A model generated the notes under the pieces. The model was given only the letters and a program-made list of their open reading frames with translations, had not been told where the DNA came from and made no database searches. From Saccharofermentans sp. (GTDB lineage Bacteria > Bacillota > Clostridia > Saccharofermentanales > Saccharofermentanaceae): 64,000 nucleotides of DNA. The stretch covers positions 1 through 64,000 of the forward strand of contig JAIKYD010000107.1 of the NCBI GenBank assembly GCA_024683485.1, in the 5' to 3' direction. Within the stretch, counting starts at the first letter, position 1; the number at the start of each line of letters is the position of its first letter. Positions 33,868 through 50,355 of the stretch are shown here, one piece after another. The position numbers and the translations under genes were made by a program.

Positions 33868-34467
33868 ATGAAAAGAACAATCAGCTTAACTATTTGCATC
33901 TGCACGCTGATTCTTGCAGGATGCGGAATTACATATCCGGATGCACGAATAATAAATGAGACCACCGGAGTAAAATCTATTCTTCAATCAGCGATGACTG
34001 AAGAAGTAAGTGTCAGCACTTCCCAATCTTCTGGAGAGAGCATTTCAGAACCCGATAAAGCTGCACCTGATTCTGAATCAATTCCTGAAAATTCCGGCAG
34101 TTCTGAAGATATTATCAAAAAGGACGTCGATATAGATCTTACTGTGGATAATGCCAATCTGGTTTATGCCGAAGTATTTGCAATGTTATATTCTCCTGAG
34201 GAATATATCGGTAAAACCGTAAAGATGAAAGGCCAGTTTACATTCTATTACGATGAGGAAAGAAACCAGTATTACTATGCCTGTATTATCGCGGATGCAT
34301 TGGCCTGCTGCTCTCAGGGACTCGAATTTATTCCTGCCGGAGAATGTGTCTATCCCGACAATTTTCCACCTGCACTTACCGAGATTTGGGTAACAGGTGA
34401 ATTCGGTGTTTTCGAGGATGACGGAACAACATATTGCGCATTAAAAGATGCGGTTTATTACTTTTAA
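33868..34467 (+). CDS. Lipoprotein with OB-like domain, probably metal-regulon linked
   Basis: The protein (199 residues) starts MKRTISLTICICTLILAGCG, a clear lipobox, with AAGGA eight bases upstream. It has a Ser/Glu-rich spacer to about residue 85. A compact C-terminal domain follows, reading VKMKGQFTFYYDEERNQYYY, ACIIADALACCSQGLEF and EIWVTGEFGVF. The Cys-Cys motif in a strand after a beta-barrel start recalls the TIGR03943 proteins of zinc regulons in other Firmicutes, but this resemblance is from memory and partial. Confidence 0.6.
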   Translation: MKRTISLTICICTLILAGCGITYPDARIINETTGVKSILQSAMTEEVSVSTSQSSGESISEPDKAAPDSESIPENSGSSEDIIKKDVDIDLTVDNANLVYAEVFAMLYSPEEYIGKTVKMKGQFTFYYDEERNQYYYACIIADALACCSQGLEFIPAGECVYPDNFPPALTEIWVTGEFGVFEDDGTTYCALKDAVYYF

Positions 34468-43561: not shown

Positions 43562-44323
43562 ATGAGTCTGCTCGAAGTAAAAAGCATCAGAAAAGTATAT
43601 AAAACAAGATTCGGCGGTGCCTCTGTGGAAGCACTGAAGAATGTAAGTTTTACAGTCGAGAAGGGTGAGTATGTTGCCATCATGGGCGAGTCCGGATCAG
43701 GCAAGACAACTCTTCTGAATATCCTTGCCGCACTTGATAAGGCAACAGAGGGAACCGTAATCCTTGACGGTATGAACCTTACAAAAGTTAAGGACAAGGA
43801 CGTTGCTATGTTCAGACGGGACAACCTTGGTTATGTTTTCCAGGACTTCAATCTCCTTGATACATTCTCTCTTGAGGACAATATCTACCTTCCGCTGGTT
43901 CTCGCAGGCAAAAAACATAACGAGATGAAGGAACGGCTTGATAAGATCGCCTCCACATTGGGAATAGATGATATTTTAAAGAAATATCCTTATGAGGTTT
44001 CCGGAGGTCAAAAACAGAGAGCGGCTGTTGCTAGGGCTCTTATAACAAATCCGCGTATAATCCTTGCTGATGAGCCAACCGGCGCGTTGGATTCCAAGTC
44101 ATCTGATGAACTTTTATCGCTGTTTAAGCAAGTCAACAAAATGGGCCAGACTATCCTTATGGTTACTCACTCCACAAAGGCGGCCTCCAACGCTTCGCGT
44201 GTTCTTTTCATTAAGGACGGTGTGATCTTCCATCAGATCTATAAAGGCGAATGCACAGATCAGCAGATGTATCAGAAGATCGGTGATACTTTGAATCTCC
44301 TTGCACAGGGAGGTGAAAGATAA
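43562..44323 (+). CDS. BceA-type ABC transporter ATP-binding protein
   Basis: The 253-residue protein has Walker A GESGSGKTTLLN, the Q-loop in GYVFQDFNLLDT, signature VSGGQKQRAAVARAL, Walker B RIILADEPTGALD and the H-loop VTHSTKAA. It belongs to the MacB/LolD/BceA group that powers FtsX-like permeases. It overlaps the permease gene by one base (TAATG). Together they should remove peptide antibiotics such as bacitracin from their lipid targets. The usual BceRS genes are not adjacent. Confidence 0.93.
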   Translation: MSLLEVKSIRKVYKTRFGGASVEALKNVSFTVEKGEYVAIMGESGSGKTTLLNILAALDKATEGTVILDGMNLTKVKDKDVAMFRRDNLGYVFQDFNLLDTFSLEDNIYLPLVLAGKKHNEMKERLDKIASTLGIDDILKKYPYEVSGGQKQRAAVARALITNPRIILADEPTGALDSKSSDELLSLFKQVNKMGQTILMVTHSTKAASNASRVLFIKDGVIFHQIYKGECTDQQMYQKIGDTLNLLAQGGER

Positions 44324-46353
44324 TGAAAGCCGGTTTCTATCCTAAAATGGCCGTCAGCGGAATGCGCAAGAACGGCCGGCTTTATCTGCCGTATATCGCA
44401 GCATGCATCCTTATGGTCTCGGTATTCTACATCATGCACCTGCTCGGATTTTCCGATATGATGACGGGCTTCGAAGGCGCAGGGACCGCAAGAGAGATAC
44501 TGAAGTACGGAACGATCGTAATGGCTGTTTTCGGAACCATCTTTCTTTTCTATACACAGTCTACTCTCATCAAGGGCAGGCTTAAGGAATTCGGCCTTTA
44601 CAGCGTGCTCGGAATGAACAGAAGGAATCTTGGAAAGATCATTTTCTTTGAAACAGTTATTACTTGGTTCATATCTGTTGCGGGCGGACTTGCTTCCGGA
44701 ATCGGCATATCCAAACTGGCAGAACTCGGATTCAGTAAAATGATCGGGCTTGATTCCAGTTACAAGTTCATCGTCAGCGGTGAGTCCATACTCTTCACTG
44801 CTATCGTGTACAGTATTATCTTCTTTCTGATCTTCCTTAACGCAACAAGACAGGTAAGATTCTCAAGAACGATCAATCTCATCTATTCTGATAAAACAGG
44901 CGAGAAACCTCCGAAAGCAAACTGGTTTGTTGGAATTTTAGGACTTGTTATCCTCCTGACCGGTTATACTATCGCGCTCAAGATCGAACAGCCTCTGTCC
45001 GCGCTCATCTGGTTTTTTGTAGCTGTGATCCTTATCATCATCGGCACATACCTTACGCTGATCGCAGGTTCTGTTCTGCTCTGCAGGATACTTCAGAAGA
45101 ATAAGAAATACTACTACAAGACAAATCATTTCGTATCCGTATCCTCTATGGCATACAGGATGAAGCGAAACGGAGCCGGCCTTGCTTCGATCTGTATCCT
45201 GCTTACCATGGTTCTTGTAATAATGTCATCAACCTCCGCTCTCTATATAAACAGGGAAGAAACACTGCAAAACCACTATCCAAGACAGATCAACTGCACC
45301 GCAAGCAATGACGGATTCTCAGACAGCTATGGCAAAACAATTGAGAAGATTAAGGAAGGCATAAACACAAAAACACAGGAATATGGTGCGGAGATCGCTG
45401 ACAGTTATATATATACCACATGCTGTATCAGCGGTTATTTCGAGAATGGCAGAATGCGCCTTGATATTGATCCGTTAACAAATATGACGACCATCGATTA
45501 CGATAAAGTCATACAGGCATATTTCTTTGATATAGACGATTACAACAGAATGACCGGAAACAATGAGGTCTTATCTTCAGGTGAAATTCTGGCAGGCGTT
45601 GAAGGCAATATTGATTTTGGCAATGAACTGGTGATCGGTGACGAGTCATTCAAGGTTGCAAAAAGGATCAACTACAGACAGGGTGACTTCAAACACACAC
45701 TCGCAAGCACGGTTGTCTCAACTCTTTTCATTATTGTGGATGATCTTGGTGAAGTGGCATCAAAATATAACCATTATGCTGACTATAACGGTAACAAGAT
45801 GCTTGCATGGGAATGGCATTATTCTTTTGACACCGGACTTGATGAGGATAAGGAGACGGAACTCGGCAAACTGCTCAGTGATTATGTCAGGGATGAACTC
45901 TATCCGCAGGAATTCTGGGGAGTCCGCTGCGAGAGCAGGGCTGACCAGCGCAACGATTTCGTCAGGACATTTGGCGGACTCTTCTTCCTGGGCATCCTTC
46001 TCAGCGTGATCTTCCTCGTCTCCTGTGTACTTATCATATACTACAAGCAGATTTCGGAAGGCTTCGAAGATCAGTCAAGATTTGGCATCATGCAAAAGGT
46101 CGGCATGACCAAAGAAAACATCAGAAAGAGCATCAACTCACAGATGCTTACGGTATTCCTGATTCCGATCCTGTTCGCATGCATCCATCTGACAACGGTT
46201 CTTCCTATCATCCACAAGCTCCTCATGCTTTTCGGACATAATAATATGCCGCTGCTCCTTGCATCTGCCGGAATCTGTGTGCTGATCTGCGGTATCTTCT
46301 ATGCTGCTATCCATAAAGTGACATCAAACGCTTATTACAAGATAGTATCGTAA
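44323..46353 (+). CDS. BceB-type FtsX-like permease
   Basis: The 676-residue protein has about ten membrane segments: two FtsX-type blocks, the first up to about 310 and the last after 540. A large outer domain of about 215 residues lies between them (DEETLQNH-like start at INREETLQNHYPRQINC, ending before TFGGLFFLGILLSVIF). This large loop is the antibiotic- and kinase-contacting part in BceB. It functions with the ATPase encoded directly upstream. No terminator is obvious before the convergent SGNH gene. Confidence 0.93.
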   Translation: MKAGFYPKMAVSGMRKNGRLYLPYIAACILMVSVFYIMHLLGFSDMMTGFEGAGTAREILKYGTIVMAVFGTIFLFYTQSTLIKGRLKEFGLYSVLGMNRRNLGKIIFFETVITWFISVAGGLASGIGISKLAELGFSKMIGLDSSYKFIVSGESILFTAIVYSIIFFLIFLNATRQVRFSRTINLIYSDKTGEKPPKANWFVGILGLVILLTGYTIALKIEQPLSALIWFFVAVILIIIGTYLTLIAGSVLLCRILQKNKKYYYKTNHFVSVSSMAYRMKRNGAGLASICILLTMVLVIMSSTSALYINREETLQNHYPRQINCTASNDGFSDSYGKTIEKIKEGINTKTQEYGAEIADSYIYTTCCISGYFENGRMRLDIDPLTNMTTIDYDKVIQAYFFDIDDYNRMTGNNEVLSSGEILAGVEGNIDFGNELVIGDESFKVAKRINYRQGDFKHTLASTVVSTLFIIVDDLGEVASKYNHYADYNGNKMLAWEWHYSFDTGLDEDKETELGKLLSDYVRDELYPQEFWGVRCESRADQRNDFVRTFGGLFFLGILLSVIFLVSCVLIIYYKQISEGFEDQSRFGIMQKVGMTKENIRKSINSQMLTVFLIPILFACIHLTTVLPIIHKLLMLFGHNNMPLLLASAGICVLICGIFYAAIHKVTSNAYYKIVS

Positions 46354-46380: not shown

Positions 46381-47166
46381 TCAGGACTGATAGAAATACC
46401 CGTAGATTTTCTCAGTCAGATACCGGGCATAGAGCAAACGTCCTGATTCCGTCAGGTGAGCACCGTCTTCAAAGTATTTGAAAGGTTCATCTTTCGAGAA
46501 ATCAATTGCTTCAGACATATTTACACAAAGGAGATTTTCTTCCTGTGCCACTTTTTCGACAGCGTCAATATAGTCGTTTAATGTTCCACCACCGCAGTCG
46601 ATCTCTTTGAATGAGACATATTCCCCATCAACGAGTGTCCATCCGTTAAGCGGGGATATCAGGATGATACTCGCATCGGGATTCATCCGGTTAATAGTGG
46701 CAACAGCGAGCCTAAGAGCATTCTCAAAGCTGTTCCCCTCACCGGATGCCGGAACACCACCGGATTGATCATTACCGCCAAAAGCCAATATCACATAATC
46801 AGCTTCTGTGATGTCATCACGCATTCTTTTGCTGTATTTATCATCGTTGTACAGAAGGATAGAGATAAGACTTCCTTCTTCCAGATAATCTCCTTCAACC
46901 CTGGTGGCCATACTGCCAGAGACACTGTTATCTGTCACTTTAAAAGAAGTCATCTCTTCAAGTCTGGAAGCAATACCTGTAGGTCCGGGTTCTATTGCCC
47001 ATATGCTTGTACCGAAAACAACTACGTTTCCGGTCATTTCCTTATACCGGTTGTCAGTTGTGATATCAGCCGGTCCCGCCTGTGATGTGGTCTGAACAGC
47101 CACGCTGCACCCTGTAAGTATCAGCGCCAGAATCAGAAATGGCAGGATTTTCAGGTTCTTGATCAT
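46381..47166 (-). CDS. SGNH/GDSL-type hydrolase lipoprotein
   Basis: The 261-residue precursor has a lipobox LILTGC. The SGNH blocks follow: GTSIWAI with the nucleophile Ser, a Gly in SVSGSMATR, the Asn in LAFGGNDQSGG and the D..H pair in EDGAHLTESG. Such enzymes are esterases, often removing acetyl groups from wall or capsule sugars. GGGAG precedes the ATG, which overlaps the stop of the upstream lipoprotein by one base, so translation is coupled. Confidence 0.85.
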   Translation of the reverse strand: MIKNLKILPFLILALILTGCSVAVQTTSQAGPADITTDNRYKEMTGNVVVFGTSIWAIEPGPTGIASRLEEMTSFKVTDNSVSGSMATRVEGDYLEEGSLISILLYNDDKYSKRMRDDITEADYVILAFGGNDQSGGVPASGEGNSFENALRLAVATINRMNPDASIILISPLNGWTLVDGEYVSFKEIDCGGGTLNDYIDAVEKVAQEENLLCVNMSEAIDFSKDEPFKYFEDGAHLTESGRLLYARYLTEKIYGYFYQS

Positions 47167-47693
47167 TAGTCTCCCGATAGATATTTGTCCCGATAGGTGG
47201 TTCCTTCCTGTGCGCATTCATCCAAAAGGTCAGAGAACTGCTTTGTATAATCATCTTCGCATAAGTTGTACAGCTTTTCAAAATACCGGTTAAACCTGTC
47301 TCCGCCTCTCAGTTCGTATCCGCCTATCTCAATTTCATTTTCACCGGAATCATACAGAATGATATATCTGGAAGTTCCGTCGGTCATGTCATCTTCTTTG
47401 CCCACATTCATTGTATAAACCTTCTCAGGCGAGAAGACCTTCTTTATCTCACTCATCCTCTCATCTGATAGCTTCTCACGTCCAAGTTCAGTGTTGTAAT
47501 AAAGCACGATCAATGTTCCGTCGCTTTTCAGGGTGTAGTATAAAGATTCATAGATCCACGGTTGTCTTATCCGCAATGTGAACATTGTATCTTCGCTGAA
47601 TTGCGGCATATCTTTTTTTGCACACCCGGTCACAAAGAAAGATGCGATCAAAGAAATAACCAAAAGTGGAATGATAATCCTGCTTTTTCTCAT
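47166..47693 (-). CDS. Lipoprotein upstream of the SGNH hydrolase
   Basis: The 175-residue precursor has a lipobox FVTGC. The mature domain is beta-rich (FTLRIRQPWIYESLYYTLKS, SRYIILYDSGENEIEIGGYE). It resembles the small lipoproteins that sit next to BlaR1-type sensors in Clostridia, but I cannot name it. I chose the ATG at 47693 with GAGGT nine bases upstream. It is 96 bases downstream of the BlaR1-like gene and probably in the same regulon. Confidence 0.65.
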   Translation of the reverse strand: MRKSRIIIPLLVISLIASFFVTGCAKKDMPQFSEDTMFTLRIRQPWIYESLYYTLKSDGTLIVLYYNTELGREKLSDERMSEIKKVFSPEKVYTMNVGKEDDMTDGTSRYIILYDSGENEIEIGGYELRGGDRFNRYFEKLYNLCEDDYTKQFSDLLDECAQEGTTYRDKYLSGD

Positions 47694-47789
47694 GTTCCAA
47701 TACCTCATATACAGTCAATTACCTTATATACAAGTATTACTGAGTAAATGTTGCACCGGAACCGGAAACTTTTTATACAGCTGGAAAGA

Positions 47790-49910
47790 TCACACTATTC
47801 TTCTAACAGTAGCCACAACGTCCAGATTTGCGGTCAGACTTGATTCTACAATGCCCTGATTGGTCGGACAAAAACTTGCGTGAATAAATTCATTGCCGCC
47901 TGCATATATTGCCGAGTGATCCACCAAGCCGTCCTGATCGTTATCAAAGCAGATTATATCGCCGGCTTTGATCTCATCAACAGGTATTTCCTCTCCTACT
48001 TTAGCCTGTAATTCAGAAGAGTGCGGCAAATGGATTCCATAATAAATATAGTAACAATATGTAACAAATCCGGATGAATCAAATCCTTCAGATGGAGAAC
48101 TGCCTCCATATGTATAAGAACTGCCGGATAAGCTCCTTACATAGGAAACAAAGTCACTGTCTCCCTCTATCTCTGAAGAACTCTCATGTTCAGGTACAGG
48201 TGTAGCAGTAACCTCAGGTTCACCGTTATCCGGGGCTGTTCCCAGAATACGCTTGACCATTAACACGTCACTTGCAGAAGAAAGATCAGACTCAATAACA
48301 CATCCTGCAGAAGGCAGTGCATCAACATAAATGCCATTGCCTGCATATATAGCACAATGGTCCGCTGTACCGTCATGCTCAGCCTTGTCAAAGAAGATAA
48401 TATCTCCAACACTGATATCATCTATAGAAACTTCATAACCGCTGTTCCTTGCCATCTGGTCACAGCCGTGCGGGAGACTGATATCATAATAAGAACGGTA
48501 GAAATACACAACCAGTCCGGAGCTGTCAAATCCTGAAGAAGGAGCATCCCCCGCGAATGTAAATGCCGTTCCGGTAAAGCTCCTGATATACGAGGCAAAA
48601 TCGGCGGGGGTGTCTTCAGACAAAGAACTTCCGGAATCAGTATCCTGTTCTGAAGGTTCCGTTGCTTCAGTCTCCCCGGCAGCAGTAGTATCTTCAGGTT
48701 CTTCATCTTCAATTATTCCATTGCTTTCAGGAATGGTTTCTTTACTGACAACCGGTGACGGTTCAGAATGCGCTGGCGCCGGAGAAGGCTCTGCTGCCAA
48801 AATCAGTGTTTCTTCTGTATCATGGTCAGCTATGTCTTTTTTAGCAGTTTTTACCGAATACTTCTGATCATCAGTACTCTTCTGGGAATTAAGTCCGCAT
48901 GCAGCTGCAACAAACAGCAGCATAACCGAGATCAGCAATGCCGTGATCTTAGTGCCTTTTTTATAGTTGATAATATTTTTCACTCTGTTGGTAACCTCCA
49001 TATTGCTGAAATTCACTTTGCTGAATCCCAGTGGAGTTACCAGATATCTTTTGTTGCTTTTCCTGGCATAGGATACAATAGACATCGTATATGCCTTCTT
49101 CATTTCCGGATTCATTCCGGAGACAGAAGCCTCATCACAGCTCATCTCTATATCCTGCTCGAAAAGTGCGTATCCAAGCCATACCAGAGGATTGAACCAA
49201 TGCACTGCAACAATTATCATTCCGGCGATCTTGCTGAGCCAGTCACCATGCTTAATATGTGTTCTCTCATGCATCAGGATATATTCTCTCTCGTCATTTT
49301 CGAGAACGTCAGGCAAATAAATCCTTGGCACAAATAAGCCAAACACAAACGGCGCTTTCACTTTCCCGGATTCATACACATTTCCGCAGACTTTTGAAGC
49401 ACCATTAAGTTTATTCTTAAGCATTACAAAACGGAATGAACAATAAGCCATTATGCTCATCGTTCCGGCTAACCAGACCACTGCAAGTACCGTCTTGATA
49501 TCCGGTAATTTCTTGACATTTGTATCCGCGGTCATTTCAGACCATTTGCTCTCTGTTAACAGGTAAGTATTATTATCAATCCCGTCAATAGAGGCTTCAT
49601 ACTTCACCGTATCATAAGTGACATCCGTTCCAGCCGGGCTGTAATCAATGGCGATATTGTCAGGTATCATAGCTTCACTGACTTGTGCGGCAGGATCTTC
49701 TGTCAGCGCCTGTGAGGGAAGAAGATTAAAAATACTGAAAGAAGACTCGATGCTTACGGGCACGATCAGTCTGACCGCTACCACAGCCCACAGAATCATA
49801 ATGAATCTCTTGGATCTTTTGCGCAGGAAAAACCGGAACAGTATAGTGATCAGGATCACTATACTTCCCGTAAAGGACATTTCCAGCACTTTCCAAAACA
49901 GATCACTCAT
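47790..49910 (-). CDS. BlaR1-type M56 sensor fused to two NlpC/P60 domains with Cys-to-Ser change
   Basis: Residues 1-340 match the BlaR1/MecR1 membrane protease part: four membrane segments, zinc motif HERTH (214-218) in ILMHERTHIKHGDW and the downstream Glu/Asp cluster EQDIEMSCDE. The penicillin-binding sensor domain is replaced by a Pro/Glu/Ser/Thr-rich linker (about 345-445) and two NlpC/P60-like repeats of about 125 residues. Both keep the frame GFDxSGxV and the His in DHCAIYAG / DHSAIYAG, but the catalytic Cys is Ser in each: Ser463 (GFDSSGLV) and Ser612 (GFDSSGFV). They may bind wall peptides without cutting them. The gene overlaps blaI by four bases. Confidence 0.9.
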   Translation of the reverse strand: MSDLFWKVLEMSFTGSIVILITILFRFFLRKRSKRFIMILWAVVAVRLIVPVSIESSFSIFNLLPSQALTEDPAAQVSEAMIPDNIAIDYSPAGTDVTYDTVKYEASIDGIDNNTYLLTESKWSEMTADTNVKKLPDIKTVLAVVWLAGTMSIMAYCSFRFVMLKNKLNGASKVCGNVYESGKVKAPFVFGLFVPRIYLPDVLENDEREYILMHERTHIKHGDWLSKIAGMIIVAVHWFNPLVWLGYALFEQDIEMSCDEASVSGMNPEMKKAYTMSIVSYARKSNKRYLVTPLGFSKVNFSNMEVTNRVKNIINYKKGTKITALLISVMLLFVAAACGLNSQKSTDDQKYSVKTAKKDIADHDTEETLILAAEPSPAPAHSEPSPVVSKETIPESNGIIEDEEPEDTTAAGETEATEPSEQDTDSGSSLSEDTPADFASYIRSFTGTAFTFAGDAPSSGFDSSGLVVYFYRSYYDISLPHGCDQMARNSGYEVSIDDISVGDIIFFDKAEHDGTADHCAIYAGNGIYVDALPSAGCVIESDLSSASDVLMVKRILGTAPDNGEPEVTATPVPEHESSSEIEGDSDFVSYVRSLSGSSYTYGGSSPSEGFDSSGFVTYCYYIYYGIHLPHSSELQAKVGEEIPVDEIKAGDIICFDNDQDGLVDHSAIYAGGNEFIHASFCPTNQGIVESSLTANLDVVATVRRIV

Positions 49911-50301: not shown

Positions 50302-50343
50302 GGTCTATCACAATAAACCCGCTATCAGTTTATTGCAGTAAAC
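50302..50343. promoter_or_regulatory. Two BlaI operator candidates
   Basis: GTTTATTGCAGTAAAC (50328-50343) and GGTCTATCACAATAAACC (50302-50319) are two inverted repeats with related arms (GTTTA/TAAAC and GGTnTA/TAnACC), 25 bases apart centre to centre. The first covers the spacer and -10 of the promoter and the second the start region, the usual layout of BlaI control. Confidence 0.6.
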
Positions 50344-50355
50344 CAAGAATGTCAA
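50327..50355 (-). promoter_or_regulatory. Promoter of the blaI operon
   Basis: On the minus strand a perfect TTGACA (50355-50350) and TAAACT (50332-50327) are 17 bases apart. The -35 overlaps the end of the upstream CPBP gene. Confidence 0.7.

Follow-up and report, generated by a model that had tools for sequence, protein, structure and literature searches.

The stretch of DNA analysed here, which we call the window, comprises 64,000 nucleotides (positions 1 to 64,000 of contig JAIKYD010000107.1, assembly GCA_024683485.1) from a member of Saccharofermentans, a genus of gut bacteria. On its reverse strand lies an operon (Table 1) in which the stop codon of a BlaI-type repressor gene overlaps by 4 bases (ATGA) the ATG start of a gene for an M56, or BlaR1-type, sensor-protease that ends in two NlpC/P60-like domains, D1 and D2. 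Pfam NLPC_P60 matches two stretches of this protein (E 1.7e-36 together), and the domains cannot be attributed to chance. They are separated from the membrane by an acidic Ser/Thr/Pro linker.

Table 1. Features of the BlaI-M56 operon and of the adjoining lipoprotein genes in the window
Feature	Position	Strand	Basis
Promoter TTGACA-17-TAAACT	50327..50355	(-)	best promoter match of the region
Predicted operator 1, GGTTTACTGCAATAAACT, inside the promoter spacer and -10	50327-50344	(-)
Predicted operator 2, GGTTTATTGTGATAGACC, past the promoter and ahead of the BlaI start	50302..50319	(-)
BlaI/MecI-type repressor, 123 aa	49907..50278	(-)	Pfam Penicillinase_R, E 7.3e-19
M56 (BlaR1-type) sensor-protease gene, 706 aa, two C-terminal NlpC/P60-like domains	47790..49910	(-)	ORF and Pfam
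M56 metalloprotease domain, aa 6-313	48972..49895	(-)	Pfam Peptidase_M56, E 2.1e-44
Cys338 codon, in lipobox-like LFVAAAC closing the last transmembrane helix	48897..48899	(-)	motif
Low-complexity linker from membrane to ectodomain, aa 339-430	48621..48896	(-)	sequence
NlpC/P60-like domain D1, aa 431-556; triad Ser463-His518-Asp530	48243..48620	(-)	Pfam and alignment
Ser463 codon AGC at the catalytic Cys position of D1	48522..48524	(-)
NlpC/P60-like domain D2, aa 575-706; triad Ser612-His665-His677	47793..48188	(-)	Pfam, alignment and model
Ser612 codon TCA at the catalytic Cys position of D2	48075..48077	(-)
Small lipoprotein, 180 aa, 81 bases downstream of the M56 gene	47166..47708	(-)
GDSL/SGNH-hydrolase lipoprotein, 278 aa, overlapping the 180-aa lipoprotein gene	46381..47217	(-)

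The 180-aa and GDSL/SGNH lipoprotein genes are possibly part of the BlaI-M56 transcript. The genes flanking the operon vary between species, and no homologue of the CPBP protease or of either lipoprotein was found near the other fusions described below, so that conserved neighbours were rejected as targets of the system. A defence system was likewise rejected, as PADLOC matched no defence family at the locus. Near the operon, on the opposite strand (43562-46353, forward), an ABC transporter ATPase and FtsX-type permease pair resembles exporters of the bacitracin/peptide type (BceAB-like).

In the protease half, an alignment places His214-Glu215-His218, Glu255, Asp259 and Arg309 on the active site of S. 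aureus BlaR1 (8exs), meaning that the HExxH motif, the downstream Glu and Asp and the Arg of the next helix are all present. The same residues have been described in BlaR1 as the zinc site and its helper residues (PMC9834060). With these residues intact the cytoplasmic half should work, and the M56 protease of the window is predicted to be functional; the full-length structure model was poor over the M56 part and unusable there.

The sequence-only reading that preceded this analysis had described an M56 protease with two tandem NlpC/P60-like domains, in both of which the catalytic Cys is replaced by Ser while the His is kept. Pfam and the alignment bear this out: the FD-C-SG motif reads FDSSG twice, with a different Ser codon in each domain, and the catalytic His stands in DH-CAIY (His518) in D1 and in DH-SAIY (His665) in D2. 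D1 has Asp530 as its third polar residue and Phe450 in place of the oxyanion-hole Tyr; D2 has His677 and retains the Tyr (Tyr599). The two domains share 47% identity. Modelled alone, D2 reaches a pLDDT of 92 and matches the C. difficile autolysin 7cfl (Z 22.2, rmsd 1.3 over 123 residues) as well as RipD, 4jxb (Z 17.1); in the full-length model D1 has a pLDDT of mostly 85-93 and the same secondary structure as NlpC/P60. The models thus indicate that the NlpC/P60 fold is kept. Much of the substrate-binding shell is kept as well in the window protein (Asp462/611, Ser464/613 and the His, with Tyr599 in D2); the Asp and Ser beside the Cys, the His and the Tyr are counterparts of ligand-contacting residues named in CwpFM (PMC7551459). 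Judged by their residues, both domains are non-catalytic, and they were not classified as C40 peptidases because, despite the fold, the catalytic Cys is missing.

In protease, repressor and operator layout the window protein is a variant of the BlaR1 type. It shares with BlaR1/MecR1-BlaI/MecI of S. aureus and B. licheniformis an M56 protease with HExxH, Glu and Asp, an extracellular C-terminal sensor, a BlaI repressor in the operon and, as predicted here, palindromic operators over its own promoter. It differs in that the class-D beta-lactamase-like sensor is replaced by two nucleophile-less NlpC/P60-like domains, that the window operator reads GGTTTA-N6-TAAACY, and that no beta-lactamase or PBP2a gene was seen in the operon. 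Pfam and the models found only NlpC/P60 at the C-terminus and no penicillin-binding, class-D beta-lactamase-like domain, for which reason we do not assign the protein to BlaR1/MecR1; against the NCBIfam model blaR1_generic it scores 91 bits (cut-off 400). RipD (Rv1566c) of Mycobacterium tuberculosis also has an NlpC/P60 fold with replaced catalytic residues (Ala-Ser-Glu), but it is a secreted, wall-binding protein without a fused protease, and the window protein scores 58.5 bits against the NCBIfam RipD model (cut-off 215). Standalone NlpC/P60 endopeptidases of the genus (for example G031 C12 and G000 C61; 454-478 aa) are about 50% identical to D1 and D2 and have the same fold and motifs, yet they all keep DCSG and the His, and are secreted and not fused to M56. 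Finally, RflaF_05439 of Ruminococcus flavefaciens carries two tandem NlpC/P60 modules, one of them with Cys changed to Ser in strain 17 (PMC3573020), but it is a cellulosome dockerin protein with no protease or repressor. Our literature search found no paper linking BlaR1 with NlpC/P60.

We found 16 full-length M56-NlpC fusions, all within Saccharofermentans (15 genus genomes, the window's included, and record L145), and the catalytic Cys is absent from every one. That homologues might mostly retain Cys, the window strain being a decayed exception, had been raised as a counter-case; the opposite is seen, and decay in a single strain is rejected because the whole clade is without the Cys. When the 18 fused domains are scored (window D1 and D2, 15 others and one truncated copy), the position holds S in 2, D in 4, E in 7, N in 3 and G in 2, while Cys and His are present in all 27 standalone NlpC/P60 domains, all but a few of them from Saccharofermentans. 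The catalytic His and the third residue are also lost in 12/18 fused domains: in the Glu, Asn and Gly members the His has become N, L or I and the third residue Y, and the most divergent members lack the whole triad and the LPH motif too. Most of the genomes compared are metagenome assemblies, and the reading frames are open in the 16 full-length fusions from 16 genomes. A search with a profile built from the fusions, over samples of order (188), class (392) and phylum (398) genomes, turned up no such protein beyond the genus; as no more than the top candidates of each genome (up to 7, later 3) were scored, this speaks for rarity, not absence. From these sequences, the dead domain is the rule in the clade and no accident, and it suggests a family of sensors in which recognition falls to a dead enzyme.

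How often the nucleophile was lost is less clear. The sequence-only reading had invoked two parallel losses in D1 and D2; these were inferred and not established, and the tree cannot decide the matter, since the branch that sets the fused domains apart is weakly supported (47/81) and D1 and D2 sit on long branches close to the standalone enzymes. A single ancestral loss, followed by drift among S, D, E, N and G at an unconstrained site, would fit the sequences equally well, and for this reason the two different Ser codons are no evidence for parallel losses.

The same chassis carries other outer parts in M56 relatives that are 50-60% identical to the window protein. Five of them (L081, L082, L084, L090 and L091) have alpha/beta-hydrolase ectodomains, and all five have lost the nucleophile Ser (to His, Gln, Gln, Asp and Gln, respectively); by sequence, this is a second type of dead hydrolase on the M56 chassis. 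Six others (L080, L083 and L085-L088) have an ectodomain that we name only by its motif, FENGVCKDCG. At the DNA level, L073 and L075 are 97.8% identical over M56 and 83.6% over the ectodomain, whereas for L074 and L145 the order is reversed (91.6% and 98.5%), and these opposite identities indicate that the ectodomain moves independently of the protease.

A BlaI gene (56-84% identity) lies directly upstream of M56 in all 32 loci scored, which include 15/15 other NlpC-type fusions, with gaps of -8 to +2 bases. The window promoter together with the second palindrome reads TTGACATTCTTGGTTTACTGCAATAAACTGATAGCGGGTTTATTGTGATAGACC, and the arrangement TTGAC-N6-GGTTTA-N6-TAAACT followed by GGTTTA-N6-TAAACC recurs in 16/16 NlpC-type operons and in nearly all relatives. 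Two operons of this kind are present in the isolate AB4001. The first part of it occurs without mismatch at the clade promoters, with reversed-pattern controls near zero, and the exact palindrome is found in about 47 places genus-wide, against 2 control matches. We predict that the paired GGTTTA-N6-TAAACY elements are BlaI operators over the operon's own promoter.

In the window genome the exact promoter with operator occurs once, at the BlaI-M56 promoter. A second operator pair (GGTTTACATGTGTCAACC and GGTTTACATATGTACACC, G000:C104:524-1864) precedes another M56 protein (1089-aa frame); it belongs to a second BlaI-M56 operon and was rejected as a sign of a wider regulon. One-mismatch matches at 34452 and on C109 were rejected as regulon members too and put down to chance: each is a lone site that lacks a paired promoter, and the one at 34452 also overlaps the end of an ORF. 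The operator search in the window genome found no wall-repair target and no standalone NlpC/P60 endopeptidase behind an operator, and autoregulation is the only visible output there, as the operator marks only its own promoter. Among relatives with a sensor of the FENGVCKDCG type, standalone lipoproteins that carry this domain (L275, L284, L287 and L289) are found behind the operator as well; the M56 protein L088 and the lipoprotein L287 are 45% identical over it. Secreted proteins of about 611-624 aa (L274, L276, L283, L285 and L288) and about 671 aa (L278, L279 and L281) also stand behind the operator, and a domain scan of two of them found LRR and transglutaminase-like domains in L276 and a BspA-type LRR in L278. 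A further operator pair, at L277:2710-2840 (G064 C40), is followed by only the first codons of a BlaI-like gene and is a remnant of a second BlaI operon.

From sequences, trees and predicted structures we propose, with a probability of roughly two in three, that the window encodes a BlaR1-like transmembrane sensor-protease whose catalytically dead NlpC/P60 tandem senses outside the cell by ligand binding and acts through BlaI, and that it exemplifies a genus-level chassis with exchangeable ectodomains. By analogy with BlaR1, the outer domains would bind a ligand without cleaving it, the binding signal would cross the membrane to the cytoplasmic M56 zinc protease, and the protease would cut the BlaI repressor encoded just upstream, which would then leave the paired operators and derepress the operon. 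The sequences themselves give the domain order, the missing nucleophiles, an intact M56 site, the adjacent BlaI gene, the conserved operators and the exchange of ectodomains; that a ligand binds, that its signal is passed on, that BlaI is cut and that the operon is derepressed would follow the BlaR1 precedent, in which BlaI is cleaved directly (PMC9834060). With the nucleophile lost, most members cannot rely on cleavage for recognition. Several of the exchangeable ectodomains are enzymes that have lost it, and recognition by a dead enzyme looks like a design rule of the BlaI/M56 chassis.

The most likely ligand of the window protein is a wall stem-peptide fragment, a guess to which we give slightly less than even odds and which is favoured by the largely kept substrate-binding shell. 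RipD, itself an inactive NlpC/P60 protein, binds peptidoglycan (PMC12067865). There may in addition be a second wall input, in the cytoplasm, since the BlaI of B. licheniformis binds a wall dipeptide directly (PMC3305447). Not all members can bind one wall peptide through the old active site, because the His and third residue are lost in the Glu, Asn and Gly members, and the more divergent ones may bind something else. Of the earlier proposal of a new wall sensor acting through BlaI, then, the BlaI-M56 operon with its conserved operator and the clade-wide non-catalytic domains stand, while no conserved ligand pocket is shared by the clade and, in the window genome, the operator is found only at the system's own promoter.

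A rather unlikely alternative is that the ectodomain serves as a surface receptor or decoy for proteins, such as foreign wall hydrolases, inhibitors or bacteriocin-like proteins, rather than for muropeptides, chassis and operator coupling its display to exposure. Ectodomains that are swapped and recombine between species would suit such a role, as would the fully degenerate catalytic pocket of 12/18 fused domains and the surface proteins under operators in trans (same-ectodomain lipoproteins, LRR and transglutaminase-like proteins); however, no partner protein is known, a good part of the NlpC substrate-binding shell survives in the window protein, and PADLOC found no defence family here.

It is unlikely, too, that the gene yields a protease and a separate wall-binding lipoprotein instead of one sensor, the last helix doubling as a lipoprotein signal and signal peptidase II cutting before Cys338. 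The lipobox-like LFV(A/G)A(A/G)C (LFVAAAC or LFVGAAC) keeps its Cys in 15/16 NlpC-type fusions, and in one species (G061, L218:4605-5294), where BlaI and most of M56 are missing, apparently deleted, operator and promoter stand directly before a GTG-start lipoprotein that consists of the last M56 helix and a dead NlpC domain. The Cys is nevertheless absent from fusion L076 (GVGF) and from most of the alpha/beta-hydrolase clade. Signal peptidase is reported to cut S. aureus BlaR1 just after its last helix (PMC9834060), which favours a cut here, but the cut could be a turnover step of the sensor, as in BlaR1. The lipobox-like Cys338, at which the ectodomain might be released, counts against the sensor scheme that we prefer.

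We consider it very improbable that Ser463 and Ser612 are themselves nucleophiles, giving slow hydrolysis or a lasting acyl-enzyme like that of the BlaR1 sensor with beta-lactams. A Ser-His-(Asp/His) triad is chemically possible, D2 having Tyr599, His665 and His677, BlaR1 does signal through a slow acyl-enzyme (PMC7593790), and the R. flavefaciens 17 module offers a Cys-to-Ser parallel (PMC3573020), but at this site the remaining 15 fusions carry Asp, Glu, Asn or Gly, unfit as such a nucleophile, and the oxyanion Tyr of D1 is Phe.

The fused domains are under purifying selection that is looser than that on the standalone enzymes: dN/dS is about 0.23-0.31 for the fused NlpC-like part in the better diverged pairs (noisy or higher, 0.4 to 1.2, in a few others), 0.03-0.15 for standalone NlpC/P60 domains and 0.2-0.3 for the M56 part of diverged pairs. 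That the ectodomain is a relaxed leftover, an NlpC captured by chance and decaying with no sensing role, would account for this looser selection and for the many lost active-site residues, but is likewise very improbable, given that the better diverged pairs stay well under 1 in dN/dS, that fold and core residues are kept across 18 domains, that frames are open in all 16 full-length proteins, and that the domain survives alone as a lipoprotein behind the operator in one species.

The broader proposition that emerges is tentative, and we hold it at somewhat less than even odds: BlaI/M56 systems across the genus may sense by dead enzymes, through interchangeable hydrolase ectodomains (NlpC/P60 and alpha/beta-hydrolase) with independent nucleophile losses. 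Such systems would switch themselves on, together with lipoproteins of matching ectodomain in some species, and wall peptides would be read by the NlpC/P60 version. Beta-lactam sensing is the known role of BlaR1 and MecR1. If the reading proposed here is true, their relatives, alike in protease, repressor and operator logic but with exchangeable dead-enzyme ectodomains, would show that the BlaR1 chassis serves transmembrane signalling in general, and would provide a simple test bed for the control of an M56 protease by its outer domain. Should the NlpC/P60 version indeed read wall peptides, it would detect wall fragments directly, outside the cell, and act through BlaI.
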